From positions 42,423,001-42,487,000 of the forward strand of contig NC_080560.1 in assembly GCF_030253575.1 (NCBI RefSeq): 64,000 nucleotides of DNA. The letters are read 5' to 3'. The notes beneath the pieces were generated by a model, which saw only the letters and a list, made by a program, of their open reading frames with translations, had not been told where the DNA came from and made no database searches. The stretch comes from Rhododendron vialii (taxonomy: Eukaryota > Streptophyta > Magnoliopsida > Ericales > Ericaceae). A program made the translations under genes and the position numbers. Below, piece after piece: positions 28,974 through 62,294 of this stretch (position 1 is the first letter of the stretch; each line of letters starts with the position of its first letter).

Positions 28974-29157
28974 CATCGCCAAAAGTGGTGAGCTTGATGG
29001 TTCCAACTCCTCCATCTCCTTCAAGGATTTCCACGCTCTTGATGGCTCGCGGAAGAATCTTGGGGATGACGGTGTCAGCGTCAAGAGCAAAGGCCTTGAA
29101 CATCCTGGGAGCAGGGATTGGGGAAGGGATCTCCATATCGTAAGTGATGGCACCCGT
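28974..29157 (-). pseudogene. PR-10 exon-1 pseudogene
   Basis: The complete exon 1 of a PR-10 gene on the minus strand keeps its frame ([19 protein letters not shown], the loop GDGGVGT, TTFGDG) and the GC splice donor of the clade. The initiator, however, is ACG instead of ATG, and no exon 2 follows: past the donor comes AT-rich and CCA-rich sequence. Substitutions are few, including VLDADTL changed to ALDADTV. It is closest to copy 7 (44.7-45.3 kb), which shares [14 protein letters not shown] and GDGGVGT. Its TATA box (29278-29285) is still intact. A transcript would give no normal PR-10. Confidence 0.88.
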
Positions 29158-29277
29158 GGTATAATTGGATAGAAGTGAGGAACTGAACAGGCTAGTGAAG
29201 AAGAAGGGGAAATAAGTAGGATTAATAGTTTATTTGTGGGAGATACTGGTGTGGGAAAATGTGAGTAGCAGAGGAGG

Positions 29278-29285
29278 TATTTATA
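29278..29285 (-). promoter_or_regulatory. TATA box of the PR-10 pseudogene
   Basis: The minus strand reads TATAAATA followed by CCTCCTC, the context shared with intact copies, about 121 bases upstream of the lost start codon. Confidence 0.7.
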
Positions 29286-29478
29286 ACTAGAGTGAGTCTA
29301 ATGGTCACCTTGTGGGGGCTGGACTAACCCCAAAAAAAAACTATCAAATTTATTTGATTCAAATAACAGCCTAATGGGAATATAAACTATTCATATTTGA
29401 AGTCAGGTCAGAGTAGCTGTTACACAAGAAATAGCAAAAAGAGAATTCATAAGGTATTTGCTGTGAATAATTGACAAG

Positions 29479-29822
29479 ACTTTGATCTGGTCTTCCAGCC
29501 CAACGGTCAAGAGCGGGAGGTTTTGGGTTCGACTTTCGAGCAGATAGACTAACATTGACACCACTCGTAGTAGTTTAATTCACGAACCGACTAATGCTAC
29601 CTGCGGCCAAAAAAAAAAAAATTTGACCGGACCTGGGAATAAATTAACAAGACTTTGATCTGGTCTTCTAGCCCAACGGTCAAGAGCGGCAGGTTTTGGG
29701 TTCGACTTTCGAGCTGATAGACTAACATCAACACCACTCGTAGTAGTTTAATTCACGAACCGACTAATGCTACCTGCAGCCAAAAAAAAAAAATTTTTGA
29801 ACGGACGTGGGAATAAATTAAC
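29479..29822 (+). mobile_element. Tandem pair of SINE copies, about 170 bp each
   Basis: Two adjacent, nearly identical units each start GACTTTGATCTGGTCTTC. Each has CCCAACGGTCAAGAGCGG (A-box-like), a B-box-like GGGTTCGACTTTCGAG and an A-run before GGAATAAATTAAC. The units differ by only a few bases. A tandem SINE dimer from duplication or repeated insertion is the best reading. Confidence 0.7.
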
Positions 29823-29824
29823 TA

Positions 29825-30580
29825 GGGTATATACCAGGATCTGTGAGTGTCCTGACTTTGTGCAGGTTAATTTACTCACACATTTGATTCTTTAAATGAT
29901 AATGGAACAATGATGGTATAGTACAACTTCTACCATTTTGACCAAAAAAGAAACTGTAAAGCCTGATGAAGTAATCTTATCCTCAATTTCTTTCTTTCTT
30001 TCTTTTACCACTTTTTATGTATTTTTGTAATTTGTCCTTCAAATATAAACTATAAGGTATGATGGTATAGCCAATGTTTTAAAAGTCGCTAGGCGCTAGT
30101 CGGGCGATCCGCTACCTTCGAGTTTCGAGGCCTAGTAATTGGCGATTAATCGGCCCATATCAATTAGTGATCGGCGATTAATCGACGGATAGCAATTAGT
30201 CGGATTTAGTTGGATAGGCCCTGCCAACGATTAACTGCCAATTAATTTCTTTTTTTTTAGAACACTTACAGCAACGAACATTGGGATGATACGTACTTAG
30301 AAATGGTGGTCCGAAGAATCTCGATAGTAGCTCCATGAACAATCCTTTGCGGGATTGGATTTTTCGATAGCGGAATTCATGGTAGCCTAACACGTTTGAT
30401 CCTAATCGGAACATATAATTTTCTGGGGTTGTCTTCTAGATAAACTGATGGTTCTTCCACATGAAAACAAAGATTTCCTCTCCACAGTTATTCAAATTCG
30501 TTTGTTTTTTTTAGTTCTTATGGTTTGTAGACTTGACTGTGGCAACGGATGGGCCCTGCTTAGACAAGTACTCCTTTGGA
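29825..30580. other. Intergenic, old dispersed repeat fragments
   Basis: No gene. About 30080-30235 holds GCTAGGCGCTAGTCGGGCG-type text with repeated GGCGATTAATCG words, a low-complexity repeat. The rest is unassigned. Confidence 0.35.
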
Positions 30581-31200
30581 ACATCAATTTTGACCAGCAA
30601 TCCAGGTGTATTGGGCCCTTGGCTACTAACTGGAATAGGAATATGAAAGCTAAGCCCATCATTGGCATGATTTAATGTAGGGGAAAATGACGGCCTTAAA
30701 CGTGTTTTGATAATTAATACCCGATAGTTTGTTTAACATTGACTTCAAATCTCCTAGGTACGTTATGTACGTAATTCATAACATTTACAAAAACTGTGTA
30801 ATAAGAAACAAATTTGCACACAAACCAAGAACAAAACCAATATGACCGTTTGGCTTGTCTTGTTTATTATTTACTTTTGTGAATTCATCTTTAGTGAACC
30901 TTTTTCGTATATATCTAGATGAAAAGAAGCAAAAAGATAGAAATAGAAATTTGATCCCTTCCAAAAAGAACCAATGAACAAATATCACTGAAAACCATAA
31001 TGAGTCTCATCAATCGATACACTCAGAGAGACATCTCTCCGATGGAAAATTACTACAATAAAAAGTCCTTTTTATCGGATGCAATCCACGAAAGCCACCA
31101 CTCACCAAACAAACAAAAAGACCAAAAACCACACCTTTGAAAACAGAGACACGCTCATAAGAACATACACAGATCAATAAATATTCCTAGGAACTCTGGT
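30580..31200. other. 3' flank of PR-10 copy 4 (duplicated module B1)
   Basis: Gene-free. It aligns with three separated pieces: 33395-33570, 38093-38281 and 40565-40797, the last being the 3' flank of copy 6. The landmark GTATTGGGCCCTTGGCTA is near 30608 and 33423. The landmark GAAACAAATTTGCAC is near 30805 and 38096. Module B1 keeps these contiguous, so the other copy has been split by insertions. Confidence 0.7.
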
Positions 31201-31203
31201 TTT

Positions 31204-31782
31204 TTAGGCATCGGGATTTGCCAGGAGGTAAGCCTCGATAGCCTTGAACATGCGGGAGGCCCTCTCTTTGCCGGCCTTGATTTCCTCTTCGCTGACTTGG
31301 GCATCGCCCTTGGTGGTATAGATGCCCCTGTTCTTGCAGACGGATCCTCCCTCAGGGGCGGCCACAATCTTGATGTGGTAGGAGATCGATTCAATAAGCC
31401 CCGCGAAGCCATCGCCTTCGATCACGGTGTAACTGTAGGTGAAGTTCTCCTTGTCGACGGCATCCACTCTTTGCTTCGCGCTCTTATACGCTCTGCCTGC
31501 ATATCCAGAGTAGCCCACATATTCATTAGATCAATTACCTATACAACATTTAGTGCAAATAATATTATAATTACATAGTTATAGTAAAGAAAACTAGCCT
31601 TCGCCAAAGGTGATGAGCTTGACGGTTCCGGCTCCTCCATCGCCTTCGAGGATTTCCACGCTCTTGATGGCTTGGGAGATGATTTTGGGGATGAGGGTGT
31701 CAGCGTCAAGAACAAATGCCTTGAACATCCTAGCTGGAGGGATTGAGGAAGGGACCTCCATATCGTAAGTGATGACACCCAT
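31204..31782 (-). CDS. PR-10 / Bet v 1-family protein, copy 4 (158 aa)
   Basis: Minus-strand exons 31599-31782 and 31204-31496, with a 102-bp intron, the shortest of the set, in codon 62 with a GC donor. The next GT, four bases on, would bring in the TAG of GGCTAG, so GC is the only in-frame choice. The product starts [20 protein letters not shown] and has GDGGAGT and [20 protein letters not shown], ending LLANPDA. Exon 2 opens [10 protein letters not shown], where relatives have SAYKS. It pairs with copy 6 ([18 protein letters not shown]) and has extra changes ([22 protein letters not shown]), so it is somewhat more diverged but unbroken. Its 5' leader contains a (GA)n microsatellite. Confidence 0.9.
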
Positions 31783-31820
31783 GGTGTTTTGAAAGTGTGA
31801 AAAAAATGAACAGGTGATGA

Positions 31821-31821
<1 letters not shown>

Positions 31822-31866
<45 letters not shown>
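31822..31866. repeat. (GA)n microsatellite in the 5' leader of PR-10 copy 4
   Basis: About 22 GA units lie between the TATA box and the ATG of copy 4, reading (TC)n on the gene's sense strand. The matching leader of copy 6 has AAGAAGAAGAAG instead. TC-rich leaders are common in plants; this one is expanded. Confidence 0.9.
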
Positions 31867-31869
<3 letters not shown>

Positions 31870-31917
31870 GGAAGGTTTAATTGGTGTGAGAAAAATGTGA
31901 GATCGAAGTAGAGGAGG

Positions 31918-31925
31918 TATTTATA
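31918..31925 (-). promoter_or_regulatory. TATA box of PR-10 copy 4
   Basis: The minus strand reads TATAAATACCTCCTC, about 136 bases upstream of the ATG because of the GA tract. Confidence 0.75.
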
Positions 31926-32007
31926 GATAGGGTCTTAAGGTCTCACTTGGGTGGACTATTCCAAAAGATGAGCAAGTTGATTTGTAAAAGTCGTTGGAAA
32001 TTGATTA

Positions 32008-33394
32008 TGTAGCAGGCCGAGCAAAATGGTTCGTGCCATGCCGAACATGATCCATTGGTCCAGTTCGAGTTCACATCGTCTTACTCTTGACATCCGGCAT
32101 ACCGTTCGCTTCACAACCGAGGTTCTGTCATTTACCGTCCGCTTAAATGGCTCGGTCTCTACTTCTCTTATGGTGGGGAGAAATGTTCGGGTAGAGACCC
32201 TCTGACGGTCGCACAACACGCTCGGTTCCGAACGAGCGTGGGCTAGTACTCCAGCTCGCCCGCATGGGAACAATAACCTCGACCGTGACGACGGTCGTGA
32301 TGTCATCCGAGCGGTTATCAGGATAAGGGTGAGGGCACGCGAAGGTGTCAGCTTACCCCGCGAACGGTTACGAAACCCCAAACATGACGCAAAGGTGACA
32401 TCATCCGACACGTGTCGAGCATTGGTGCAATCTTGGAGGCCAAGCTAAGGATTCTCTATAAATACATCATTATGCCTTCTTGTGGGAGGTACACAGTAGA
32501 CATTCTTACAACCCTAGCTCTTGGTTCTTTGCTTCTCTCTGCTAGAATACTGATTCTTACACCGGAGGGCCATTCCGGAGAACCTCCGGTGTGGTTTTTA
32601 AAGGTGCTTCATTTTGCAAGGCGAGGAGAAGGTCAAGAGCAGATCTCGAAACCCTAGATCAAGGAGAACGAACCATCTCGAACGAAGCCCCACAATTTGG
32701 TGAACCTGACGTGAATCTTTCTTTTAGATCCGCGGCAGCTCCTTCGTTGTCCTTCCTCTTGCTCGTTCTCTAAAAACTTCTCCAACCACATCGCCGCCTA
32801 CCAAAATGGGCGGACCACCACCTCCTTTTCAACCCCTCAACCCCCCTTACCAATCACCTCTGAAACCGGGGTCAACTTCGCTTCCCCATCTTACCCCCCT
32901 GGATTTACTCCTCCTGGCGGCAGCGCCACCCTCCAACATCCGGCTGGCTTGAGTGAGGATGCTTTGGCTTACATTCAAATGTTGGAACAACAACAGGAGC
33001 AAACCAACGCTGACGTCGCTATCCTCAAGTTGGAAATCGCTCGAATCAAGGCAAGTAATCATCCGGCCGCCTCCCATTCTGATTCTCAGGGAAGGCACCG
33101 AAGGAGAAACTTGCCTCCACCCCCTCCATTAGCTGGAAATGAGAATCCACGCCGCATCTCTATCCACGGCCGCCTGGATCCACCGCTAATGGACAATCGG
33201 GACGAAGACGTTGCTCGCTTTAAGCAACAACGTTCTTCGGTCCACAAGCGCCTCGGCGGGGGTACGGGCGTGGGAGGCGTGGAAGTAGGATGAGAAGGCA
33301 GCCCACATACCGTCTACTCTAGCTCAACGGCAAGAGACGAGTACTCTCGAGGCTCTCAGAGTTATGACACTGTGAAGCTGCTTGACAATCAACA
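32008..33394 (+). mobile_element. Ty3/gypsy-type 5' LTR with partial gag (fossil, truncated)
   Basis: The LTR is 32008-32694 (TGTAGCAGGCC...CCCCACA), with TATAAATACATCA near 32457. Internal sequence follows to about 33394, where it stops against duplicated flank DNA. The internal part encodes a Gag-like N-terminus (LSEDALAYIQMLEQQQEQ, ILKLEIARIKA). Such coiled-coil starts are usual in plant gypsy gag of the Tat/Athila kind (lineage tentative). No 3' LTR or pol is present. A matching LTR sits alone at 36379-37066. The undisturbed paralogous flank at about 41637-41650 shows the original target, ...TTGATTATTTG. Confidence 0.75.
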
Positions 33395-35070
33395 AGCATT
33401 AATTTTGACTAGCAATCCTGGTGTATTGGGCCCTTGGCTAACTAACTGGAATAGGAATATGAAAGCTAAGCCCATCATTGGCATGTTTTATGTAGTTTGT
33501 TTAACATTGACTTCAAATCTCCTAGGTACGCTATGTACGTAATTCATAACATTTACAAGAACTGTGTAAAATAATTCCGGCTCTGTCCATATGGGGCTTT
33601 GCCCGTCGTCAAATGGGGTCGCCCGGTAGTAAACGGCTAGATTGGTCTCCTAAAAATTAGTCAAGATGCGTGTAGATTTGCCCAAACACCTTAACTTAAT
33701 TAACATATTGTGAATCACGGTTGATGCTGTGAATTGACGTGCAATGTTATCAAATTTTCTGCAAAAACCTATGAATTCATGCACATACGATTCATACACA
33801 TCCAAGCACAGAGTTCGTGCTATAGTATTTCGGTGATTCTCCGCGTTAAACATAGAAAATGGTCGAATGGAATAGCTATTTTTCGCTGTAATTAAGTAGT
33901 TACATTGCTTAAGTTTGTTCAGTATTGCCGCTAGAACCCATGATGGGTATAGGGATGCTGTCGAGCATATCCCTGTAGAGTGATGTGGAACGGCTGATCC
34001 GGCCGTTCACCTCAGCAATCGACTGCTCAAATTGAATAAGAGGTGTTTTTTAGTTTGGAGAGCAAAAAATTAAAATGTCCCGTGGACTAATTGTTAGATT
34101 TCCGGATTACCATGTGGAATGAGTTACAAGTAATAACGTCACAAAAATTATTTGGGTAACTCATTAATCTCAAAAAGCCAACATCGGTGATTGGTCAACA
34201 CCGCACCTAGTGTGGTTGGTTCGTTACTCTCTCTTCCAAGGGAGAGGTCCTGAGGTGCTCGATCCCTGTTGTAACAATCAACCCCTAACGTCCAATCGTC
34301 TGACCAAAAAAACACATCGGTGATTGTTAATGTTCCACCGTCAACATTTTGTTGTGCCCAGAATCAAGCACACGCATACAAACAAATACAGAGACGATGA
34401 TATTTAGGTGGTTCGACAACTGCGCGCCTACTTCAAGGTTAGCGAATTTCTATTTTGGAAGAGATTTACAATGCACTCAAATACCATAACCTAAGTGCAT
34501 ACTGGTCACCTCACAACTCACTCTGTTTTATAATACACATTCATCTCTCACGACGCATGAATATATAGAGGCAGAGAGAATACTATTCTCGATCGACTCA
34601 AAAATCATTTTCAGAACCTTGATCAAGTCGCTCATGGTTGCTGGTCTTCGTCGTAAGGAAATGCCCGCCAACCTTGAGATCTTGAGCAAATCCAAATACT
34701 AACATGTGTTGAATAGCAACAATCTGGCGTTACGTATTAATTGAGTGGGAGTACCATGTGAAAATGTGGCATGATACTCCGAGAGTATTGAATAATTACT
34801 CGTCGACTATGACTGCAGCAAACAAATTGTACTTCTCGTTTCAACGTGTTGGGATATGGTTTAAGAAAAAAGCTTAAACATTATACATTGATACTGTCAA
34901 AAACACATAGCTTTAATGAAAGACAACAATAGTGTCTTCCTTATTGAATGGATGCCCTCATCTATAGACAAACAACCGGAAACAAAAAACCAATCTCTAA
35001 CAAGTCAAATAAAAGCACACTCTTGATAGATGCTAAGCTCTCAATAAGGAGTTTAGCAACTAGCTAGGCT
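33395..35070. other. Intergenic: fragment of module B, SINE piece, unassigned DNA
   Basis: 33395-33570 copies 30580-30790. About 33580-33690 is the 3' part of the common SINE (GGTCTCCTAAAAATTAGTCA, GCGTGTAGATTTGCCC). 34310-34690 is unassigned sequence with GGTGGTTCGACAAC, of the kind seen in degenerate LTRs. No gene is seen. Confidence 0.4.
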
Positions 35071-35076
35071 CTAGAT

Positions 35077-35703
35077 TTAGGCATCAGGATTTGCCAAGAG
35101 GTAGGCCTCTAAAGCCTTGAACAAGACTGAGGCCGCTTCTTTGCCGGACTTGATTTCCTCTTCTGTGACTTGGGCATCACCTTTGGTCTCATAAATGCTT
35201 CTGATCTTGTAAATGGATCCTCCATTGGGACCGGGTACGATTTTGGTGTGGTAAGAGATTGATTCGAACTTGTCCATCAACTCAGCACCGTCAATTACGC
35301 TGGAACTGTAGGTGAAGTTCTCTTTGTCGATAGCATCAACTCTATGCTTCAAAGTCTTATAAGCGCTGCCTGCATATTAAGAAAAGAAAACACATACACA
35401 TTAGTTTGTATTTCAAATTGTTTATCTTTCTACAAATGACAATCTCAGTACTCTACAATTGGCATAAGTTTATCTTTGAAGGGCCATTGAAAATTAGTAG
35501 TGTGAGAAGAGAAACTAGCCTTCGCCAAGAGTGATGAGCTTGATAGTTCCAGCTCCTCCGTCTCCTTCGAGGGTTTCCACACTCTTCATGGCCTGTGGCA
35601 TGATCTTGGGGATGAGGGTGTCAGCGTCAAGGACGGAGGCCTTGAAGACCCTCGCGGGAGGGATTGAGCAAGGGACCTCCATATCGTAAGTGATGACACC
35701 CAT
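35077..35703 (-). CDS. PR-10 / Bet v 1-family protein, copy 5 (158 aa), diverged
   Basis: Minus-strand exons 35520-35703 and 35077-35369, with a 150-bp GC-AG intron in codon 62. The protein starts [20 protein letters not shown] and ends [10 protein letters not shown]. It is the most diverged intact member of the second clade: [13 protein letters not shown] in exon 1, KTLKHRV, then [39 protein letters not shown], and [12 protein letters not shown]. The usual ICKN/VCKN cysteine is Tyr here (IYKI). The glycine-rich loop GDGGAGT is kept, the frame is open and the TATA box is intact, so it is probably expressed. Altered residues at the ligand-cavity mouth could mean a different ligand; this is inference. 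Confidence 0.9.
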
Positions 35704-35820
35704 GGTGGTTTAGAAGTTGGAAATGAACAAAGGATGAAGAAGAACAAGAAGTAGTGAGAGTAACAGAGGATAGATTGGTATGAGGAAATTGTGTGAGGGA
35801 AATGTGAGAATTAAAAGAGG

Positions 35821-35828
35821 TATTTATA
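35821..35828 (-). promoter_or_regulatory. TATA box of PR-10 copy 5
   Basis: The minus strand reads TATAAATACCTCTTTT, 118 bases upstream of the ATG. Just upstream, TTGTTTGGGAAGTGGACTAT occurs twice within 50 bases (about 35855-35930), a local tandem duplication. Confidence 0.75.
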
Positions 35829-36002
35829 GAATACTTGGGGTCTAAAAGTCCTATTGTTTGGGAAGTGGACTATTCTAATATATTCCGTTATTGTTTGGGA
35901 AGTGGACTATTCTAATATATTCCGTTCTGGACAAGAAACTGAATTTAAATAGAATACGTACTTTTGAATCCAACTAGTATTCGTTGAAAGGTAGTTATTG
36001 AA

Positions 36003-36237
36003 TTTTTTTTTCTTTTTTTAGGTGCTTAAAATGGTAGTGCAAGTATGGTTCTTAGTCACCTTTGCCAGGGAGTTGTATCGTTTGGTCACAGCACACCACT
36101 ATCGTAGGGGATCCCAGTACCGCACCTAAGTCGGGACCGAAGCTAACATCCCACCACGTGTGGCTATGGGGATTTGAACCTGAACATTGTCCAACCAAGT
36201 CTAAGTTTCCGACCACTTAACCAACCCGAAACTTGAA
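36003..36237 (-). mobile_element. SINE with target duplication and A-rich tail, minus strand
   Basis: On the minus strand it reads TTTCGGGTTGGTTAAGTGGT (A-box), then CAGGTTCAAATCCCC (B-box). The body has GTGGTGGGATGTTAGC, and it ends in AAAAAAAGAAAAAAAAATT. It is flanked by AGTTATTGAA (35993-36002) and AGTTATTCAA (36238-36247), a 10-base target duplication with one mismatch. It is a different SINE family from the one at 26.5 kb. Confidence 0.85.
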
Positions 36238-36378
36238 AGTTATTCAAATGAATACCCTGCAACACGAACATATATAGCTTATAAATAAATTTAACCTCAG
36301 CCCTCTACTTTGAAGACTTGAAGAGTTTTACACATGTTGTCGCAAATGTTGGAAATGAGCACAAAAAATTTACTTATT

Positions 36379-37066
36379 TGTGGGGCTCCATTTTGGGTGG
36401 TTCGTCCTTTTTGAATGGTGGTTCGGAGTTAGCTCCTGTCTCCTTTACTCAGTCCTGCAAAATGAAGCACGACTAAAAGACCACACCGGAGGTTCTCCGG
36501 GATGGCCCTCCGGTGCAAGAGTCAGTTTGCTTGCCAGGAAAAGTTAGAGATTGGGAGCTAGGGTTTTGTTTGAGCGTACCTCTTCCAAGAAGGCATAATG
36601 GGATATTTATAGGAAACCCTTCGCTTGGTCTCCAAGATTGCACCAACGCTTGACACGCGTCGGCTGATGTCACTGTTGCATCACGTTTAGGGTTTTGCAA
36701 CCGTTTTTATGATGAGCTGGCACCTTCACGTGCCACCATCATTGTCCTCATAACCGTTCGAATGACGTCACGACCGTCATCATAGCCATAGTTGCTGTTC
36801 TGATGCGGATGAGCTGGATCGTCGACCAAGCCATGCTCGGCACCGAGCATGTTGTGGGACCTTCGGTAATTATCCGAACGAACGTATCCTCCACCCCGAG
36901 CAGGTGTAGGGAATGAGGCATTAAAGGTGTAAGTAGAGGAACCCTCGGCGACAGGGACCTTCGGCTACGGTTCCTGATCCGAACGTCCAAAGAAAGATGT
37001 CTTGGAGTTGAAAGTAATACTTGATCACGCTCGGAATGGCCGAGCCATTTTGCTCGGCCTGCTACA
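36379..37066 (-). mobile_element. Solo LTR of the same gypsy family, with 5-bp target duplication
   Basis: Minus-strand TGTAGCAGGCCGAGCAAAAT...GAGCCCCACA, 688 bases, matches the LTR at 32008-32694 in length and layout, including the hairpin CCGGAGGGCCATCC...GGAGAACCTCCGG. TTATT lies on both sides (36374-36378 and 37067-37071), and there is no internal sequence. This is the product expected from recombination between the two LTRs of one copy. Confidence 0.88.
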
Positions 37067-37322
37067 TTATTCACCGTAAAGCTCGTAATGTACGTATACG
37101 TGTGCAGTTAACCCTGATAGATTCTCATCTTTAGAAAGTTTAGTAGTGTTGTCACGTTAATTCAATGGTTTTTAGGCTCAAAACATGGCATGTTTGGGAA
37201 ATTTCAAATTTCCAAGTGGTCTCAAAAACATTTTAGGGGGCACTAATGTGAATTCTTTGGGAGGTAATTGAAAGATTCACTGCCAAAACAGGGATATAAA
37301 TGTAGTTCTGAAAAGTCAAGGG

Positions 37323-37691
37323 TAGGGGTGTGCACTGGTCGGACGGGTCGGGTTTGGTCCCGAACCCGACCCGACTGGTCGGGTATTGAATTTTTGGGCC
37401 CCGAACCCGAACTGAAGGAGTGGGGGTAACCGTCCGCGTGCCCGATTTTTTTGGTCGGGTCGGGTTTTGGTCAGGTCGGGTCCGACCAAAACCGAAGTAA
37501 ACTATATGAATTCGTTGCCCTTTTTGTCGGGTTTGGTCAGGTCGGGTAAGAAAAAACAGCACCCCAAGCCCCGAACCGAAAACTAATTTTTTTAGAAAAA
37601 TGTACCCGTACTTGACCGAACCACATGTTCGGCCCCGCCCGAAACCTTTCGGGTCGGGTCCGTCGGGGCTCGGTTTTTTTGCACACCCCTA
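37323..37691. mobile_element. MITE with AGGGGTGTGCA inverted ends, GGGTCGG-rich
   Basis: AGGGGTGTGCA at the left and TGCACACCCCT at the right form the terminal inverted repeats. The interior is rich in CGGGTCGGGT and CCGACC words that can pair with each other. Such ends resemble hAT-type MITEs. A target duplication is not clear. Confidence 0.7.
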
Positions 37692-38092
37692 ATCTGGGGT
37701 ATGAAAGAAGGTGGCGGGCAGTCGTCGGTGGCTAGAGGAGAGAGAGAGAGAGGCGGTGGGAGAAGGAAGGTGGAGGGAAAATGCAACTTTTTCGGTTAAT
37801 GAAAAACATGTGAGGGAATTCATAATTTTAAATATTAATCTGACTAGACATTCCTTTTAGCTGGTTGATGGCATTAGTCGAGGTGCTCATAAGTGTTATT
37901 GAAAGTATACCCGATCAATAATTTCAGAGTCTTTTGAGATTGATCGATGTGCAAGCAAGTGTCACCGGAAATTTATCCGGCTATTAACTCCAAGTCTTGA
38001 GTAGCAATGTGCCAGAAATGGATATTTGTAACTTTTAGGGCACCTATTAAATGCAACGTTAAAAAAAAAAAAAAAAAGAGGCAGCGACAAGA

Positions 38093-38281
38093 TGAGAAAC
38101 AAATTTGCACGCAAACCAAGAACAAAACCAGTATGTCCGTTTGGTTTGTCTTGTTTACTACGAGTATTTACTTTTGTGAATTCATCTTTAGTCAATCTTT
38201 TTCGTATATATCCAGATGAAAAGAACCAAAAAGATAGAAATAGAAATTTGATCCCTTCCAAAAGGAAACAATGAACAAATA
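38093..38281. repeat. Displaced fragment of module B flank
   Basis: It is a near copy of 30802-30985 (AACCAAGAACAAAACCA, TCGTATATATCCAGATGAAAA). It stops at ATGAACAAATAA, where module B1 continues into ATCACTG; that continuation resumes at about 40565. The stretch 38281-40565 is therefore inserted DNA relative to B1. Confidence 0.7.
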
Positions 38282-40560: not shown

Positions 40561-40796
40561 TAAGGCTATATATATCACTGAAACCCATAATGAGTGTTAT
40601 AAATCGATACACTCATAGAGACATCTGTCCGATGGAAAATTACAATACAAATTCCTTACCTTTTTATTGGATGCAATCCACGAAAGCCACCACTCAGCAA
40701 ACAAAAAAAAAAAACCAAAAACCACACCTTTGAAAACAGAGACACACTCATAAGAACATACACAGATCAATATATATTCTTAGGAACTCTGGTTTT

Positions 40797-41409
40797 TTAG
40801 GCATCGGGATTTGCCAGGAGGTAAGCCTCGATAGCCTTGAACATGCCGGAGGCCTTCTCTTTGCCGGCCTTGATTTCCTCTTCACTGACTTGGGCGTCGC
40901 CCTTGGTGGTATAGATGCTCCTGTTCTTGCAGATGGATCCTCCCTCGGGGGTGGCCACGATCTTGATGTGGTAGGAGATCGACTCGACAATCCCCGCAAA
41001 GGCGTCGCCTTCGATCACGCTGTAGCTGTAGGTGAAGTTCTCCTTGTCGATGGCATCCACTCTTTGCTTCGCGCTCTTATACGCGCTGCCTGCATATCCA
41101 GAGTAGCACACAGATTCGTTAGATCAATTACCTATACAACATTTAGTTCAAATAATAATACAGAACATTAGTTTAAGGCAATAATACAGAACATTATAAC
41201 ATAGTTATAGTAACGAAAAACTAGCCTTCGCCAAAGGTGATGAGCTTGACGGTTCCGGCTCCTCCATCGCCTTCAAGGATTTCCACGCTCTTGATGGCTT
41301 GTGGGATGATTTTGGGGATGAGGGTGTCGGCGTCAAGGACAAAGGCCTTGAACATCTTGGCTGGTGGGATTGAGGAAGAGACCTCCATATCGTAGGTGAT
41401 GACACCCAT
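40797..41409 (-). CDS. PR-10 / Bet v 1-family protein, copy 6 (158 aa)
   Basis: Minus-strand exons 41226-41409 and 40797-41089, with a 136-bp GC-AG intron in codon 62. It starts [20 protein letters not shown] and has the loop [70 protein letters not shown] and the end LLANPDA. It is unbroken. It is the duplicate of copy 4: both the coding sequence and about 230 bases of 3' flank match 31.0-31.8 kb. The upstream flank at 41600-41650 preserves the site where a gypsy LTR entered the copy-4 module. The molecular role is inferred from the family. Confidence 0.92.
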
Positions 41410-44681: not shown

Positions 44682-45262
44682 CTAGGCATTTGGATTTGCC
44701 AAGAGGTAAGACTCGACGGCCTTGAACATGCCTGAGGCCTTCTCTTTACCAGCCTTAATTTCCTCTTCTGTGACCTGGGCATCTCCCTTGGTGTGATAAA
44801 TGCTCCTGTTCTTGCAAATAGAGCCTCCATCGGGAGTGGGAACGATCTTGATGTGGTAAGAGACTGACTCAAAAAGACCCATCAAAGCATCACCTTCGAT
44901 GATGCTGTAACTGTAGGTGAAGTTCTCTTTGTCAATGGCATCAACTCTCTGCTTCACACTTTTATAAGCGCTGCCTGCATGTTCAAAAATTAGTTAGAAT
45001 GCTTGTTAGTTTGCCTTTTTTTTTTAAATCAACTCATCATACGATTGATCGTATTAGAGAAAGGAAACAGAAACTAGCCTTCTCCAAAAGTTGTGAGCTT
45101 GACAGTTCCAACTCCTCCATCTCCTTCAAGGATCTCCACGCTCTTGATGGCCTGTGGAAGGATCTTGGGGATGAGGGTGTCGGCGTCAAGAACAAAGGCC
45201 TTGAACATCCTGGGGGCGGGGATTGAAGAAGGGATCTCCATATCGTAAGTGATGGCACCCAT
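44682..45262 (-). CDS. PR-10 / Bet v 1-family protein, copy 7 (158 aa)
   Basis: Minus-strand exons 45079-45262 and 44682-44974, with a 104-bp GC-AG intron in codon 62. The start is [20 protein letters not shown], the loop is GDGGVGT, then [46 protein letters not shown] and the end SYLLANPNA. It is the only copy ending NPNA and the only one stopping with TAG. The exon-1 pseudogene at 28974 is its nearest relative. No break is visible. It faces away from copy 8 (ATG at 46795), so the two may share the 1.5 kb between them as promoter space. Confidence 0.92.
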
Positions 45263-46794: not shown

Positions 46795-47506
46795 ATGGGT
46801 GCCATCACTTATGATATGGAGGTCTCTTCCTCAATCCCTCCATCCAAGATGTTCAAGGCCTTTGTCCTTGACGCCGACACCCTCATCCCCAAAATCCTCC
46901 CACAGGCCATCAAGACTGTGGAAACCCTCCAAGGAGACGGAGGAGCCGGAACCATCAAGCTCATCACTCTTGGCGAAGGCTAGTTCCTATTCTTGTTAGC
47001 AATTAATGTACCATGTTCTTGCCCGGATATTTTTATACCGGAATTACTTTTGTTGCTTCCACCAACTCCAAAATCGGCCAAGTTTTTTCGTATCTGGTTT
47101 GGAAACAACAAAAATAGTTTTTACCGTGCAATTGGCTTTGGAGAATCTAACGTGAGCTAATTTTTCTGAAGGTAAACTAATTTCCATGTGAATTTGCTAC
47201 TTCTAATATGCAGGGAGCGCATACAAGAGTGTGAAGCAAAGAGTTGATGCCATTGACAAAGAGAACTTCACCTACAGTTACAGTGTAATTGAAGGCGATG
47301 CTTTGATGGGCATTTTCGATTCAATCTCTTATCACATCAAGATCGTAGCCTCTGCCGATGGAGGATCCGTCTGCAAGAACAGGAGTATTTATCAGACCAA
47401 AGGTGATGCTCAGGTCACAGAAGAGGAAATCAAGTCTGGCAAAGAAAAGGCCTCTGCCATGTTCAAGGCTATTGAGGCATACCTCTTGGCAAATCCTGAT
47501 GCCTGA
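46795..47506 (+). CDS. PR-10 / Bet v 1-family protein, copy 8 (158 aa)
   Basis: Exon 1 46795-46978 and exon 2 47214-47506, with a 235-bp GC-AG intron. It starts [20 protein letters not shown]; it has [13 protein letters not shown], where copies 9-11 have [13 protein letters not shown], and [53 protein letters not shown] and the end LLANPDA. It is intact. AATAAA lies at 47632-47637. The last 323 bases of gene and 3' UTR (47288-47610) are identical to copy 10 although its intron and flanks group with copy 9. Family role: cytosolic ligand-binding stress protein. Confidence 0.93.
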
Positions 47507-50182: not shown

Positions 50183-50184
<2 letters not shown>

Positions 50185-53620: not shown

Positions 53621-53627
53621 GGCTACT

Positions 53628-53756
53628 TTGACATTCCTTTTTGTTGACTTCAAATTATATATTTTCAAGTTTTCTCATAATTATCAAAGTGGCAGCTTTT
53701 TAGAATACTCAATTGCCCACAAAAGAGGACCAAAAGACTTCAGTACTCTATAAATA
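53628..53756 (+). promoter_or_regulatory. W-box pair and TATA box of PR-10 copy 9
   Basis: TTGAC at 53628-53632, 11 bases, then TTGACT at 53644-53649; TATAAATA at 53749-53756, 122 bases before the start of exon 1's ATG region. The arrangement is shared with copies 8, 10 and 11. Confidence 0.65.
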
Positions 53757-53877
53757 CCTCCTCCATCTCTCACATTTTCCTCACACCATTTCCTCACATA
53801 CCTTGAGCAGTTTCTCCTTAATCTTCTTATTACTCTTCTTCTTCAGTTCTTTTTTTCAACACTTCGTCTAAACTACC

Positions 53878-54588
53878 ATGGGTGCCATCACTTATGATAT
53901 GGAGGTCTCTTCCTCAATCCCTCCATCCAAGATGTTCAAGGCCTTTGTTCTTGACGCCGACACCCTCATCCCAAAAATCCTCCCACAGGCCATCAAGAGT
54001 GTGGAAACCCTTGAAGGAGACGGAGGAGCCGGAACTATCAAGCTCATCACTCTTGGCGAAGGCTAGTTCCTATTTTTGTTACAAATTAATTTACCATGTT
54101 CTTGCCCTGATATTTTTATACCCGAACTACTATTGTTGCTTCCACGAACTCCAAAATCAGCTAAGATTTTTGTTATCTGGTATGGAAACAACAAAATAGT
54201 TTTTACCGTGCAATTAGCTTTGGAGAATCTAACGTGAGCTAATTTTTCTGAAGGTAAACTAATTTCCATGTGAATTTGCTACTTATAATATGCAGGGAGC
54301 GCATATAAGAGTGTGAAGCAAAGAGTGGATGCCATTGACAAGGAAAACTTTACCTACAGTTACAGCGTAATTGAAGGCGATGCTTTGATGGGCATTTTCG
54401 ATTCAATCTCTTATCACATCAAGATCGTAGCCTCTGCCGATGGAGGATCCGTTTGCAAGAACAGGAGTATTTATCAGACCAAAGGTGATGCTCAGGTCAC
54501 AGAAGAGGAAATCAAGTCTGGCAAAGAAAAGGCCTCGGCCATGTTCAAGGCTATTGAGGCATACCTCTTGGCAAATCCTGATGCCTGA
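53878..54588 (+). CDS. PR-10 / Bet v 1-family protein, copy 9 (158 aa)
   Basis: Exon 1 53878-54061 and exon 2 54296-54588, with a 234-bp GC-AG intron very similar to that of copy 8. It starts [20 protein letters not shown] and has [34 protein letters not shown] and the end LLANPDA. Exon 2 encodes the same protein as copy 8 although about eight bases differ, all synonymous, while the introns differ at roughly one site in ten. That fits purifying selection on a working gene. The poly(A) signal AATAAA is near 54719. It is intact. Confidence 0.93.
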
Positions 54589-54729
54589 AACTAAAGCTTC
54601 CCAAAGTTTTTGTTGAGATTACTATTTGATGAGTGTGTAGTTTGCATGCTTTTGTATCATGATTTAAAGGTGTGATCTTCAGTTTCTTGTTGTTTTTCCG
54701 ACTTGTTGCTTTGGTTCAATAAAAATGGC

Positions 54730-57250
54730 GCTATATTGTAATCTTTCTTCAAAGAAACGTCCATGATGTATCGATTGATAAGAGTCATAGTACAATAATC
54801 GAATCTCAATGACATTATTCAGATAGTGATTTTCACGGACTCTTCTGCGCCGAAAAATTAAAATATGCATGAAAGTGTGTTATTTTTTCAATCGAACAGG
54901 AACCCCAAGTTTCCAAAAAGTACCATAACTGTTAGACAGAGGTATCCAGTGACATATGCTTGAAATTTTTTGATTAATGTTTTTATCTTTTGGTAAGATA
55001 ATTATTTAATAACGTCCTTATACAATGCGGTATGAAAACCTAAGATTCAAGCGCTTTCGGAAGGCATGAATTCAATTCAAATAAATAAATTTCAATTCAT
55101 TACTCCACCGCTCTCAATTTTACCGTCCAAAAGTATTTTAGACAGTCCGGATTTTAAAAGAACTTTTTCAGGAAAGAGTTTAACTCTTCTTCCCTGAAAC
55201 TATTCCCTGAAAGAGTTTTTTTAAATCCGGACCATTGATTGCAGAGACGGACGGTGAGATTGAGTGCTGCTGTGGAGGGAGCGTTGAAACAGAGCGGTAG
55301 GGGTAGACTTACTATTTGACAATGAGGTGACAACTGATTAGAAACCTCAAGGGGTTGGCCTAATGGTCAAGACTGAAACTAAGGAGTTTGCCTCCTCCTA
55401 ATTAAGTTCTCGAATTCAAAACTTCTCAGGTGATAACTTCTTTGGGGCCAGTCCATATGGAGCATTTACTCCGATATTAAGTGGTGGCCCCGCTAGTGGA
55501 CGGTAGGTTTGGTCGAGATGCGCGTAAGCTAACCAGAAACTTGTTTATAAAAAAACAACTGATTAGTCAACATGAACTGAAATGGTTACTCAATGAATTT
55601 CGTGTATAAATAGGAACGATGAACGGTTCAACTTATCATCATCATGGATCCAGATACTTGATCAATGAGCTAATAATTGGTTTGTTCCTCTACTTAAATA
55701 ATTGGTGCCTCAAGACCACCAAATAAATTTTCGTCAATCCGAATACCAAGAATCAGCTTGCAATCGATCTAAGTCGCTGCGGTCCACGCAGTAGAAATGG
55801 TCTTTAGATTGTGACTTTGAATTTAACATATTCAAGAACAAACTTGACTGGCATTCTATGTTACTATGGAGTAATATTATTTAGTTTTTGGGACAATTTT
55901 TATTGGCATACTTTTCTTGAGCATTTTCTTTAGTAAGTTATTCGTTCCTATTTCGTTGTGTAGAGAATTTCATGTACTCTGTTTAGAAGATTTTATTTTA
56001 GTTTTTGGCAACATTTTGTGGTAGGGATATTGTTTTGTTAGAAGATGGGCAATGTCCAATTTAGGGCTTTCCATGCGTTATTCATGTTTATTTGCTGTTA
56101 ATTGATCAAATGTGAGCATGATAAAGTAAAGAGCCTTATCCTTTCGAACTCTCAGGTTCAACTTCCACTGCTAACCAAAATATCATTGGGACCGCTAGAA
56201 ATTTATTAACTTTAGATTCCCGAGATTAGTCAACACGCCCGTAAACGAGCCCGAACACCCAATTGTCAAGACTATGCGATTCGTGATTTAAGTGTATAAC
56301 CATTTCAACAAAAGTTTGATTTCTCTAGAAGTTCAAATTCCAAAAGGCAGCTAATGCATGCCCAAATACAATAGTCTTATTGTCAGCATTGGTGTCCCAG
56401 GAGACTTTCATTTACTACAATTTCCAAGTTGTGCGTACCCACCAATAAATATTCTGAAATTATTAAAATTGGCTCAAATTTATGTGGCTAGCTATCAACT
56501 TGGGTTACTTTGGCCGGCCGACTGGAATAAATATAACTTCTGGCCAAAATCCAAAAAATTTAGACCAACTAATGACATTATCATACACTGACTACATCTT
56601 AATTAGAGTTGGAGCCAGTCCATACAGAGCTTAATTTCCTCCGGCTTTAATTCGGCTCTCCGCAATTGGACGGTTGGAAAGAGTGATCCCCAAAATTAGT
56701 CGAAGTGTGCGAAAGCTGACCCGGACACTTAGAGTTATAAAAATAACCTAGCTACTACTTCTTAGAGTAACTCCAACCTTACAATTGCCTCAAAAATCAA
56801 ATCCAACCTTGATGGAAAACTACCTTTGATCACTTCGTGGCATTTGGCATGAATGAGTATAACTGTAGAAATTAAAACGTTTTTTGCCTTCCATGCATGA
56901 GAAAGGATTTTGTGGGGGAAAAAATTGAATACATATTTCATTTTGCCATATAAGCCTTAAAATCAAAATATAAACTTCCGAATTAACAAGTGGCGCTCTG
57001 AAAGAGAGGAGAGCAAAGCTTTAACTCGAAAGAGGATCGCGACAAGAAGACTGGCTCGAGTGAAAACCCTCCTATCTTTTTCATTAAGCAGACGAGATCT
57101 GACAAGAGTTAAGCAATTAAAAAGGAAAAATAAACATTGACTGTCAAGCTTGGAAATGCTCTTAATTAACTTTTCCTTGATCATACAAATGGACATTAAG
57201 GTGTGTGAACTCTTTTCTTTAATTTGTTCCTTTTCCTAACAATGCATGGC
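54730..57250. other. 3' flank of copy 9 and upstream flank of copy 10 (module C)
   Basis: Gene-free. It matches the flank of copy 8 apart from three things: the hairpin element and solo LTR are missing here, and 55101-55305 carries a MITE-like replacement. It holds a SINE at 55343-55552 and a SINE piece at about 56600-56750. An open frame of 77 codons at 56358 has no recognisable domain. Confidence 0.6.
55101..55305. mobile_element. MITE-like element in the flank of copy 9
   Basis: TACTCCACCGCTCTC at the left pairs with GAGCGGTAGGGGTA at the right. Inner TTTTAAAAGAACTTTTTCAG and CTCTTTCAGGGAATAGTTTC blocks are also self-complementary. The corresponding flank after copy 8 (48435-48510) has unrelated sequence here, so the element replaced or displaced about 75 bases. 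Similar sequence lies near 7020-7180 and 43270. Confidence 0.6.
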
Positions 57251-57254
57251 TACT

Positions 57255-57389
57255 TTGACATTCCTTTTTGTTGACTTCAAATTATTTATTTCCAGTAGTT
57301 TTCTCATATAATTATCAAAGTAGTGTAGGATTTTAGAATATTCAATTGCCCACAAAAGAGGACCACAAGACTTCAGTACACTATAAATA
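57255..57389 (+). promoter_or_regulatory. W-box pair and TATA box of PR-10 copy 10
   Basis: TTGAC at 57255-57259 and TTGACT at 57271-57276 with the same 11-base gap; TATAAATA at 57382-57389, 124 bases before the start codon. Confidence 0.65.
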
Positions 57390-57512
57390 CCTCCTCCATT
57401 TCTCACATTTTCCTCACACCATTTCCTCACATACCTTGAGCAGTTTCTCCTTAATCTTCTTTACTCTTCTTCTTCTTCAGTTGTTCATTTTTTTCCACAC
57501 TTCTAAAACACC

Positions 57513-58171
57513 ATGGGTGCCATCACTTACGATATGGAGGTCTCTTCCTCAATCCCTCCATCCAAGATGTTCAAGGCCTTTGTCCTTGACGCTGACACCC
57601 TCATCCCCAAAATCCTCCCCCAGGCCATCAAGAGTGTGGAAACCCTTGAAGGAGACGGAGGAGCTGGAACTATCAAGCTCATTACCCTTGGCGAAGGCTA
57701 GTTACTACTTTAATTATACCAATTTATCATGTTCTTGCCATAATATTTCTATGCTGGAAACTATAATTGTCGCTTGACAAAATAGTTCTTAGAGTGAGAT
57801 TGTCTATGGAGAATTTCATTAGAGTTGGTTTTTTTCCTATTGGTAAACTAACATGCATTTGCTACTTATAATTTACAGGCAGTGCTTATAAGAGTGTGAA
57901 GCAAAGAGTCGATGCCATTGACAAAGACAACTTTACCTACAGTTACAGCGTCATTGAAGGCGATGCTTTGATGGGCATTTTCGATTCAATCTCTTATCAC
58001 ATCAAGATCGTAGCCTCTGCCGATGGAGGATCCGTCTGCAAGAACAGGAGTATTTATCAGACCAAAGGTGATGCTCAGGTCACAGAAGAGGAAATCAAGT
58101 CTGGCAAAGAAAAGGCCTCTGCCATGTTCAAGGCTATTGAGGCATACCTCTTGGCAAATCCTGATGCCTGA
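57513..58171 (+). CDS. PR-10 / Bet v 1-family protein, copy 10 (158 aa)
   Basis: Exon 1 57513-57696 and exon 2 57879-58171, with a 182-bp GC-AG intron whose sequence groups with copy 11, not with copies 8 and 9. It starts [20 protein letters not shown], has [14 protein letters not shown], and is unique in [14 protein letters not shown] (Asp where all others have Glu). It ends LLANPDA. The stretch 57953-58275 is identical to copy 8. It is intact, and its 3' flank holds an antisense exon-2 relic. Family-level role only. Confidence 0.93.
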
Positions 58172-58435
58172 AACTAAAGCTTCCCAAAGTTTATGTTGAG
58201 ATTTCTATTTGATGAGTGTGTAGCTTGCTTTTGTATCATGATTTAAAGGTGTGATCTTCAGTTTCTTGTTGTTTTCTTCCCGAATTCGTTGCTTTTGTTC
58301 AATAAAAATGATGTTATATTGTAATCTTTCTTCAAAGAAACGCCCATGATATATATGGAATCTCAATAACAATATTGTTCAGATAATGATTTTCACACTT
58401 TGTTTTTTTTGTTCATACTCTTTTTTCGTCCGTAC

Positions 58436-58531
58436 CTCAAAGAGATTGACTCAAATCTCGTCAAAGCATGGCCTTCAATTACGCTATAATTGTATGTGGA
58501 GTTCTCCTTGTCGATTCCAACAATGCCTTGC
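58436..58531 (-). pseudogene. Antisense PR-10 exon-2 relic after copy 10
   Basis: On the minus strand it reads GIDKENSTYNYSVIEGHALT then RFESISLR, which is the Bet v 1 core ([16 protein letters not shown]...FESISY). No splice acceptor, C-terminal helix or exon 1 is attached. It is a small internal fragment of a more diverged paralogue, in the opposite orientation to copy 10. Confidence 0.8.
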
Positions 58532-58636
58532 TCTAATTTGCACTAAATTGGCTTCCTTTGTATCACTTGAAAAAAAAAATATAATAATCTAGGACACAAT
58601 TCGAGACATAACTGTCTTCGAAGCCGTCCGAAATGT

Positions 58637-58638
58637 CG

Positions 58639-58671
<33 letters not shown>
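58637..58671. repeat. (GT)n(AT)n microsatellite
   Basis: TGTGTGTGTGTGTGTGTG is followed by TATATATATATAT. The matching place after copy 11 (about 62800) has only a short GTCGATATATTTATA, so the expansion is specific to this unit. Confidence 0.85.
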
Positions 58672-58672
<1 letters not shown>

Positions 58673-58958
58673 CAAACGACTCTGGATACAGTTGTATTCG
58701 GAATTGTGTTTTAAATTGTATTTCTACCAATACTCTCGGAAAAATTCAAATGAGTTTTTGCATTTTAATTTACCTATACCAACATATTGTACAAATTAAA
58801 TTTTATCCACATAGGAAAACTACTGAGAATTTCGAACTGCACAGTGGAAAGTCAACTTCTGAGCGGAAAAATTTTACTAATATGCAAGAAAATGTGTAAT
58901 TTTTTCAATCAAACAGTGACACGACTTTCCATAAAGGGCCAAAATTGTTAGACTGAGG

Positions 58959-59188
58959 GATTGGAAAATTCTATAATGTAAGGCCCTGCAAGGCATTTTG
59001 TAGGGCACACAAAAACCATCAATCTTGACAATGAATGGTTGAGATATAATTTTTAATTATGACTGATAAAAATCATTTATTACCGGTCATAATTGATTTT
59101 TAATGTGGACCGTTAATTGATGAGATCGACGGCTATGTGCCGCTATACACGTGCACTACACGGGGGTGCACTACAGTACCCCGGATCC
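58959..59188. mobile_element. MULE-like MITE, 230 bp, with 10-bp target duplication
   Basis: TAGACTGAGG occurs on both sides (58949-58958 and 59189-59198). The paralogous site after copy 11 (near 63087) has a single TAGACTGATG and continues straight into TACTATCAATTATCTC. The interior has TAATTTTTAATTATGACTGA and its near inverse. A 9-11 base target duplication is typical of Mutator-like elements. The terminal repeats are weak. Confidence 0.75.
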
Positions 59189-59207
59189 TAGACTGAGGTA
59201 GTATCAA

Positions 59208-59865
59208 TTATCTCTCTCTCAAAAACTCCCTAGCCGTCTCTCTTCCTTTCCCTCCCTCGTCCTAGAGTTTTCACCACCCATATGCAGTGGCAAGAAGGGA
59301 GGGCTTTACCCTTAATGGAGTATGTTTTTCTTCCTCTACTAGTTATGGTTTTTTCGCTTTCAATAACTCCTACTTTTCAATGAGGGTTTTCTCTCTTGAT
59401 CTCAGTTTGAGAGTTTCTTTCGGTGCACTACTCTTTTCTTTTCTATTGGCTTTCCTTCATCACTAATCCCTCCTCCGCCGCTCCTCCTCCATCGCCACCA
59501 ACACGTGGTCACCAGTGGGCTGGCTTCCATGCATGGTTGTGGTTCTTGTTACCATCTTGAGGTCTTCGGAGATCCGTGATTTCTGGTCGTGGTCACAAAG
59601 GCTCTACCGGTGACCGATTAGGATGGTTTGTGATGTTATGGATTTTTTCCTTTCTTTTTTTTTTTAATTTTTCGATTGGATTTCAATCCAAGCTTATGGC
59701 ATGAAGTGTGTGTTTTTTGCTGGGAAATGTTGTTTGGTTTGGGGTAGGGGGATAGCCATTATCCCTGTGTAGAAACGAGTCTTCTACTTGATGTATTTTG
59801 ATTAAAATTAATAATATCACATGTTATCGTTTTAAAAAGAAAAAAAAAAAGTTGCATCAATTGAG
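59208..59865 (+). mobile_element. Retroposed insert with A-rich tail, unit of copy 10
   Basis: The segment begins after GTAGTATCAATT with a pyrimidine-rich CTCTCTCTCAAAAACTCCCT and runs through CACCACCCATATGCAG and CTTCGGAGATCCGTGATTTC. It ends in AAAAAGAAAAAAAAAAG next to GCATCAATTG, a decayed copy of the 12-base flank. Copies 8 and 9 lack it. The poly(A)-type tail and flanking repeat point to a LINE-type or LINE-mobilised insertion. No reverse transcriptase is recognisable. Confidence 0.6.
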
Positions 59866-61360
59866 ACGCTTGAAATTTTTTATTAATCTTTTATCTTTTG
59901 GTAAGACATTTATTAATAATTATCTTTTGGGATTTCAGCTCTCGGAAGACAAGAATTCTATTCATTACGCGCCGGTCAAAATTCTCTTATACGATAAGTC
60001 TAGATGGGGAGCGGGGGTGTATCACATTCGAAAATTGGGGTAGCTTGACTATGTACATTTTTCAAATTGCTTTTGACAATGATGTAACAACTGAATTAGT
60101 CCACATGAACCCAAATTTTTATTCAATGAATTTCGTATAAATACGAAAGATGAACGGTTCAACGGATGATCATAAATCCAAATAATTGATCAAATCCTCA
60201 AGTTAACGACGGTCAAACCCTCTAGCTGTCCCAAGATTTGAAATATTTGGCCTCCGTGGTATTCGAATTAACGTGCGAGTTGTAGTGTGGACTACAACTT
60301 TAATTACTCTTTTTTAGAAGATTTTTATTAATTAGTTTCTTGCAACATTTTGTGGTGTAGGTATTGTTTTGTTAGAAGATTGGGAATGTCCAACTTAGGG
60401 CTTCCTATGTGTGATTCATGTTTATTTGCAGTTACTAAATTATTGATTAAATGGGAGCATGACAAGAAGTAAGGAGCTTATCCTTTTGAACTCTCAGTTT
60501 TCACTTCCACTGCTAACCACAAAATCTTTCAGACCTCTTGAAATTTGCTTGGACAGTAACTTTAAAGTTCCGAGATTAGTCGACATGCGCATAAATGATT
60601 GTGAATACAAAATTATCAGGGAAATGTGATTCATGATCATTTAAGTGTACACTACCATTTCTACAAGTTTGATTTCTAGAAGTTCAGGTTCCAAAAGGCA
60701 GCCAATGGCCCAATACAGTAGTCTGTGTTCAACATTGATGTCCCAAAAGGCTTCAAACTACAATTTCCAAGCTGTACCCACCAATAAGTATGTCGAACAC
60801 TATACCACCAAAATAACAACCGAAAAGAATGATCCTCAAATTATTAAAATTGGTTCAAATTTATGTGGCTATCAACTCCTAGGGGTTTGACCAAGTGGTT
60901 ATGAAAAAACAATAAGAGTTTTTCCATGAGGTCATAGGTTCTATTCCTACGAAGGCCAAACATTTCAAACCTTAGAGGCACTGAGAGTTATGCCCGGTTG
61001 TTACCACATCTTAGACAAGGGCAGAGCTAAATTGAGGAGAGTGGCACGAGCCACCAGGCCACCCCTGATTTCATAAATAGTGTTATTATGCACTTACCGA
61101 AACCAAACCGAGCCTTAAGGAGAGTGGCACGAGCCACCAGGCCACCCCTGATTTCATAAATAGTGTTATTATGCACTTACCGAAACCAAACCGAGCCTTA
61201 AGTTCCAATCACTTGGGGTCGGCTACATGAATCTTTTTCCTCCATTGAGCTCTGTCAAGAGCCATTTGCTCTTGACAGACAGCCAAGCTTGGAAGCTTTC
61301 CCTTGATCATACAAATGGACTGTCAAGATGTGTGAACTCTTTTCTTTAATTTGCTCCTTC
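59866..61360. other. Upstream flank of copy 11, with SINE-like and LINE-tail remnants
   Basis: No gene. About 60878-61000 has GGTTTGACCAAGTGGTTATG and AGGTTCTATTCCTACGAAGG, resembling A- and B-boxes. About 61195-61260 has CACTTGGGGTCGGCTACATG, a text I associate with 3' ends of plant LINEs. The rest matches 56075-57240. Confidence 0.5.
61036..61201. repeat. Perfect tandem duplication, 2 x 83 bp
   Basis: GGAGAGTGGCACGAGCCACC begins two identical units (61036-61118 and 61119-61201), each ending CCAAACCGAGCCTTAA. No difference is seen between them, so the event is very recent or it is an assembly effect. Confidence 0.9.
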
Positions 61361-61377
61361 TCCTAACAATGGCTACT

Positions 61378-61513
61378 TTGACATTCCTTTCTGTTGACTT
61401 CAAATTATTTATTTCCAATAGTTTTCTCACATAATTTATCAAAGTGGTGTAGGTTTTTAGAATACTCAATTGCCCACAAAAGAGGACCACAAGACTTCAA
61501 TACTCTATAAATA
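61378..61513 (+). promoter_or_regulatory. W-box pair and TATA box of PR-10 copy 11
   Basis: TTGAC at 61378-61382 and TTGACT at 61394-61399, again 11 bases apart; TATAAATA at 61506-61513, 120 bases before the ATG. Confidence 0.65.
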
Positions 61514-61632
61514 CCTCCTCCATTTCTCACATTTTCCTTACACCATTTCCTCACATTTCTTGAGCAGTTTCTCCTTAATCTTCTTTACTCTTCTTCTTCA
61601 GCAGTTCATTTTTTTCACACTTCCAAACTACC

Positions 61633-62294
61633 ATGGGTGCCATCACTTATGATATGGAGGTCTCTTCCTCAATTTCTCCATCCAAGATGTTCAAGGCCTT
61701 TGTCCTTGATGCCGACACCCTCATCCCCAAAATCCTTCCCCAAGCCATCAAGAGTGTGGAAACCCTTGAAGGAGACGGAGGAGCCGGAACTATCAAGCTC
61801 ATCACCCTTGGCGAAGGCTAGTTACTACTTTAATTATACCAATTTATCTTGTTCTTGCCATAATATTTCTATGCTGGAAACTATTGTTGTTGCTTGACAA
61901 AATAGTTCATAGAGTGAGATTAATTGTCCGTGGAGAATTTCATTAGAGTTGGTTTTCTCCTATTGGTAAACTAACATGCATTTGCTACTTATAATTTACA
62001 GGCAGTGCTTATAAGAGTGTGAAGCAAAGAGTCGATGCCATTGACAAAGAGAACTTCACCTACAGTTACAGCGTAATTGAAGGCGATGCTTTGATGGGCA
62101 TTTTCGATTCAATCTCTTATCACATCAAGATCGTAGCCTCTGCCGATGGAGGATCGGTCTGCAAGAACAGGAGTATTTATCAGACCAAAGGTGATGCTCA
62201 GGTCACAGAAGAGGAAATCAAGTCTGGCAAAGAAAAGGCCTCGGCCATGTTCAAGGCTATCGAGGCATACCTCATGGCAAATCCCGATGCCTGA
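61633..62294 (+). CDS. PR-10 / Bet v 1-family protein, copy 11 (158 aa)
   Basis: Exon 1 61633-61816 and exon 2 62002-62294, with a 185-bp GC-AG intron close to that of copy 10. It starts [20 protein letters not shown] (Ser for Pro at residue 15) and has [34 protein letters not shown] and [18 protein letters not shown], ending YLMANPDA (Met for Leu). It is otherwise the same protein as copies 9 and 10 and has no breaks. The poly(A) signal AATAAA is near 62422. It lies in the last of the four tandem units and carries the same antisense relic downstream as copy 10. Confidence 0.93.

Follow-up and report, generated by a model that had tools for sequence, protein, structure and literature searches.

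A GC–AG intron shared by a tandem PR-10 subfamily of Rhododendron vialii, most likely an inherited near-neutral donor variant

In eight of the 11 intact PR-10 genes found in a 64,000-nucleotide stretch of Rhododendron vialii DNA (NC_080560.1, positions 42,423,001 to 42,487,000; hereafter the window) the single intron begins with GC and ends with AG, as judged by frame analysis, and an exon-1 pseudogene carries the same donor. Judged from the sequence, this pattern is very probably the legacy of a single inherited T-to-C change in one donor that is still spliced by the U2 spliceosome and that was passed on by tandem duplication. We regard the GC donor as most probably a near-neutral variant that was inherited, and a special regulatory role for it is not supported by the comparisons made among the genes of the cluster.

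The PR-10 cluster and its single intron

Searching the window with PR-10 sequences revealed, besides the 11 intact genes (c1–c11) and the pseudogene, three short exon-2 remnants (Table 1). The intact copies are tandemly duplicated genes of the PR-10 (Bet v 1) family, the family of multiple related genes that also includes birch Bet v 1 and kiwi Act c 8 and Act d 8. A Pfam scan, run on c8, matched residues 1–155 of its protein to Bet_v_1 (PF00407) with 90.6 bits against a cut-off of 22.4, and the other 10 intact copies aligned over their full length. The solved structures closest to these copies were 8QHI and 8QHH, which PMC10649968 describes as Act c 8 and Act d 8 of kiwi. All 11 intact copies have, if spliced in the first register, one intron, which interrupts codon 62 after its first base and leaves an exon 1 of 184 nt, and the same position, codon 62 between the first and second base, is described for birch PR-10 genes (PMC1552068, PMC2671506). 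For the pseudogene no exon 2 was found within positions 29300–28001, and a scan of the window against Rfam returned no matches.

Table 1. Positions in the window of the PR-10 genes, the pseudogene, the exon-2 remnants and the retroelement.
Feature	Position	Strand	Structure
c1, GT donor (GTTAGTTT), 157 aa	5576..6233	-	exon 1 end 6050
c2, GT donor (GTTTGTTC), 157 aa	12726..13375	-	exon 1 end 13192
PR-10 exon-2 remnant, sense	17405..17482	+	upstream of c3
c3, GT donor (GTTTGGTT), 157 aa	17815..18478	+	exon 1 end 17998
Copia-type LTR retrotransposon	20018..25764	+	broken frames
Pseudogene, exon 1 only	28974..29157	-	start codon ACG; donor GATG|GCTAGTT
c4	31204..31782	-	exon 1 31782-31599, GC-AG intron 102 nt, exon 2 31496-31204
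c5	35077..35703	-	exon 1 35703-35520, GC-AG intron 150 nt, exon 2 35369-35077
c6	40797..41409	-	exon 1 41409-41226, GC-AG intron 136 nt, exon 2 41089-40797
c7	44682..45262	-	exon 1 45262-45079, GC-AG intron 104 nt, exon 2 44974-44682
c8	46795..47506	+	exon 1 46795-46978, GC-AG intron 235 nt, exon 2 47214-47506; PF00407
c9	53878..54588	+	exon 1 53878-54061, GC-AG intron 234 nt, exon 2 54296-54588
c10	57513..58171	+	exon 1 57513-57696, GC-AG intron 182 nt, exon 2 57879-58171
PR-10 exon-2 remnant, antisense	58440..58536	-	268 bp downstream of c10
c11	61633..62294	+	exon 1 61633-61816, GC-AG intron 185 nt, exon 2 62002-62294
PR-10 exon-2 remnant, antisense	62574..62670	-	279 bp downstream of c11

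Several further elements lie amongst these genes. Each antisense remnant makes up an inverted repeat with exon 2 of the gene that it follows (72 nt, 76% complementary, for c10; 73 nt, 79% complementary, for c11), so read-through transcripts of either gene could form a hairpin, and the remnant upstream of c3 is 71–80% identical to the 11 copies over 59–79 bp. The copia-type element separates the subcluster of GT genes from that of GC genes; of the five ORFs scanned there, three had Pfam domains (gag, integrase and reverse transcriptase) and those at 23879–24487 and 24916–25764 gave no Pfam match. Both of these presumably resemble the RNase H end of a copia element, which suggests that two copies of the element are present.

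The GC donor and the choice of splice register

A preliminary description of this DNA had reported G|GCTAGT at nine exon-1 ends and G|GT in copies 1–3, and direct reading bore out both statements: GCTAGTT stands at all nine sites (c4–c11 and the pseudogene), and the three GT genes read GTTAGTT (c1), GTTTGTT (c2) and GTTTGGT (c3), such that in these first seven bases of the intron c1 and the GC genes differ at +2 only. The 158-residue protein described for the GC donor was likewise recovered, since joining it to the CAG|G acceptor that the genes share leaves an uninterrupted frame of 158 codons in each of the eight GC genes; the three GT genes each have 157 codons. Among the eight GC genes the GCTAGTT block is invariant at 7/7 positions, compared with 19/45 fourfold sites, which fits constraint on a working donor and is silent on any preference for C over T. 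Sequencing error was ruled out, as nine loci, distributed over both strands, all show the same base, and so was a U12-type intron, given that the donor reads GCTAGT in 8/8 GC genes against the ATATCC-like consensus described for that class (PMC3033335).

The strength of the donor was assessed as the predicted energy of its duplex with the U1 5′ end, a crude measure by which the GC donor reached −5.2 kcal/mol, compared with −6.7 for c1, −6.0 for c2, −5.4 for c3 and −9.3 for an ideal GC donor, whilst the pseudogene donor reached −3.7 kcal/mol. The GC donor is thus weaker in U1 pairing than all three of its GT sisters, and lies near the weakest of them, c3. U2-type GC–AG introns have a strong match to U1 in the rest of the donor, and the base that matches U1 at +3 is A. 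The GC donor pairs at −2, −1, +1, +4, +5 and +6 and is unpaired at −3, +2 and +3, the T at +3 producing two adjacent mismatches (+2, +3). Among sites up to 60 nt from the junction, U1 pairing was best at the GC site in seven of the eight GC genes, the exception being c4, in which one GT at +60 outscores it but sits beyond the in-frame stop. When all GT and GC sites of each whole gene were ranked, the GC site came 2nd to 7th of 51 to 65, and the donors of the GT sisters came 3rd, 3rd and 6th of 57 to 60.

The further claim that the GC donor is the only choice that yields 158 residues holds strictly in c4 and had to be given up for the other seven GC genes. Introns were enumerated for each gene by trying GT and GC dinucleotides at or beyond gene position 120 as donors with AG acceptors that left an intron of 50 nt or more, and pairs that preserved the frame and gave a product of 150–166 residues were retained. 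In c5–c11 158 residues were also obtained, with the substitution S63Y, from a GT–AG pair whose donor and acceptor each lie 4 nt further downstream. In c4 a product of 158 residues results from the GC donor alone, and the five other frame-keeping GT/GC–AG pairings are all shorter, with residues removed; residue 63 of this copy is Arg, specified by an AGA codon (31494–31492, minus strand) next to the splice junction. The shifted register is also open in the GT genes c1 and c2 and is therefore no special feature of the GC genes, whereas GT gene c3 lacks a GT at +4 and must therefore use the first register for its 157 residues.

Could both ends of the true intron then be displaced 4 nt downstream (GGCTA|GTT...CAGGCAG| or CAGGGAG|), with an ordinary GT donor and Tyr63, possibly alternating with the GC register to give two isoforms? 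Besides the open 158-residue frame in seven of the eight GC genes, such an intron would find in c5, c6, c7, c10 and c11 a downstream acceptor that is CAG like the upstream one. Against this, the shifted frame stops at a TAA in c4, the shifted donor pairs with U1 at −0.2 kcal/mol compared with −5.2 for the GC donor, none of the GC genes has a G at either −1 or +5 relative to the shifted donor, c3 offers no GT at this position, and the Ser encoded at residue 63 in the first register is kept in 10 of the 11 copies as well as in two kiwi proteins and one strawberry protein. We therefore consider a shifted canonical intron very unlikely and, on account of the c4 stop, the poor U1 pairing of the shifted donor and the Ser63 shared across copies, take the GC donor as the better reading of these sequences. 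Less likely still is a two-register intron, by which the subfamily would make Ser63 (GC–AG) and Tyr63 (GT–AG) isoforms from one gene in seven of the eight copies, the second open GT–AG pair of a c1-like ancestor, still present in c1 and c2, having buffered the change from GT to GC. For the GC donor itself, frame, conservation and U1 pairing together argue for splicing at the GC site, and we infer that the GC introns are probably spliced efficiently.

Origin and retention of the GC donor

The GC and GT genes were separated with 100% ultrafast bootstrap support in trees of the whole CDS, of third positions, of exon 1 alone and of exon 2 alone. When the pseudogene was added to the exon-1 tree the split was supported at 99% and the pseudogene was placed as sister of c7 (bootstrap 97). 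A protein tree including two kiwi sequences and one strawberry sequence had low support inside the GC group and did not place the GC copies in a single clade, leaving the position of the root uncertain, so that GC could in principle be ancestral and c1–c3 reverted. Because the c1 donor departs from that of the GC genes at a single base, one change is enough, and a T-to-C change in a GTTAGTT donor would most simply explain all nine GC copies. The direction is less certain: that GT is the ancestral state would rest on c1–c3 and on the GT donors of most birch PR-10 genes.

The GC donor had further been said to have been kept through at least eight duplications, a number which holds when the pseudogene is counted, the eight intact genes requiring seven. 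With gene conversion, fewer of these retentions of the GC donor would be independent. Divergence among the GC genes reaches dS 0.72, and dS is not the same in the two exons, a difference that such conversion could have produced; dN is below dS in every pair among the 11 genes. In a separate comparison, that of c6 with c8, dS was 0.24 in exon 1 and 1.03 in exon 2, and gene conversion confined to exon 1 may account for the contrast.

The preliminary description had also taken the long retention of the GC donor as a hint of slower or regulated splicing, and here its reading was not supported when set against other C sites of the same genes. A C was unchanged across all eight GC genes at 10 of 20 majority-C fourfold sites and at 21 of 40 majority-C third positions with a conserved codon prefix, these silent or near-silent sites being linked to one another and not fully independent. 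For a neutral C at +2, survival is therefore expected about half the time with no special cause needed, and selection for GC deduced from retention alone was dropped as unnecessary. The related point that a retained intron would end translation in a 62-residue product is correct for all eight GC genes but is not specific to them, as GT gene c1 gives the same product; in the other two GT genes the corresponding products have 95 (c2) and 71 (c3) residues.

That GC was nevertheless kept by selection for slow or regulated splicing, with retention giving the 62-residue product under some conditions, would be in keeping with the immediate stop on retention in 8/8 GC genes, with U1 pairing weaker than in the three GT sisters, and with an enrichment of GC donors in alternatively spliced genes, including those of Arabidopsis, for which earlier work is cited in PMC2490688. 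Yet a C is expected to survive about half the time, the stop is identical in c1, U1 pairing lies close to that of c3, and the introns of the GC genes otherwise diverge freely in sequence and in length (102 to 235 nt), such that we regard selection for slow or regulated splicing as very unlikely. The weak U1 pairing, together with the one true pseudogene that has the same donor, might instead point to a defective donor, with c4–c11 mostly unspliced and becoming pseudogenes, but their frames are intact in 8/8 cases and dN is well below dS between GC copies at dS ~0.6, making this the most improbable of the explanations considered.

The preferred explanation remains a single inherited donor change. 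In the ancestor of the c4–c11 subfamily an AAG|GTTAGTT-like donor would have become AAG|GCTAGTT through one T-to-C change, which we infer to have been an effectively neutral event; the major (U2) spliceosome would still recognise the donor on account of the U1 pairing kept at −2, −1, +1 and +4 to +6, and the descendants would have inherited it through ordinary tandem birth-and-death duplication. With eight paralogous copies of one intron carrying GC and three carrying GT side by side in a single genome, the cluster provides a natural set in which to ask whether a GC donor alone alters splicing. It may matter for annotation too, as a gene predictor that allows GT donors only would be expected to misplace or break the eight GC genes, or to choose the S63Y model.

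Comparison with known GC–AG introns and PR-10 donors

The intron described here has the GC donor, the AG acceptor, the G at −1, the A at +4 and the G at +5 of plant U2 GC–AG introns and, unlike their consensus, which has A at +3, carries a T at that position. It also differs from GC–AG introns in general in being common to a whole tandem subfamily. Birch PR-10 donors are described as mostly AG:GT (PMC1552068, PMC2671506); a 2009 survey of 134 sequences gives AC:GT (a pseudogene) and AG:AT amongst its 5′-site exceptions and names no AG:GC there, and a 2006 birch paper names one GG:GT donor. A search of the open-licence literature brought up no description of a PR-10 gene with a GC donor, although wording such as ‘GC donor’ could escape a search of this kind.

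Elsewhere in plants GC donors form a small minority, as the preliminary description had stated, with reported values of 1.2% (PMC6310983) to 1.5% (PMC7072748) of introns, and GC–AG introns are reported to be often conserved (PMC6310983, PMC7072748). Of the introns in other plants that are homologous to Arabidopsis GC–AG introns, 9,830 were GC–AG, 13,045 GT–AG and 121 of other non-canonical types (PMC7072748), and in primates and rodents 298 changes from GT to GC were inferred as against 40 in the reverse direction (PMC2490688). Intron 12 of SYMRK, a functional gene, is described as having a GC donor in most dicots (PMC10668435); that case concerns orthologues across species, whereas here the donor is shared by paralogues in one cluster. 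Given the precedents from SYMRK, from Arabidopsis and from primates and rodents, a GC donor held by a whole group of genes is thus a known kind of event.
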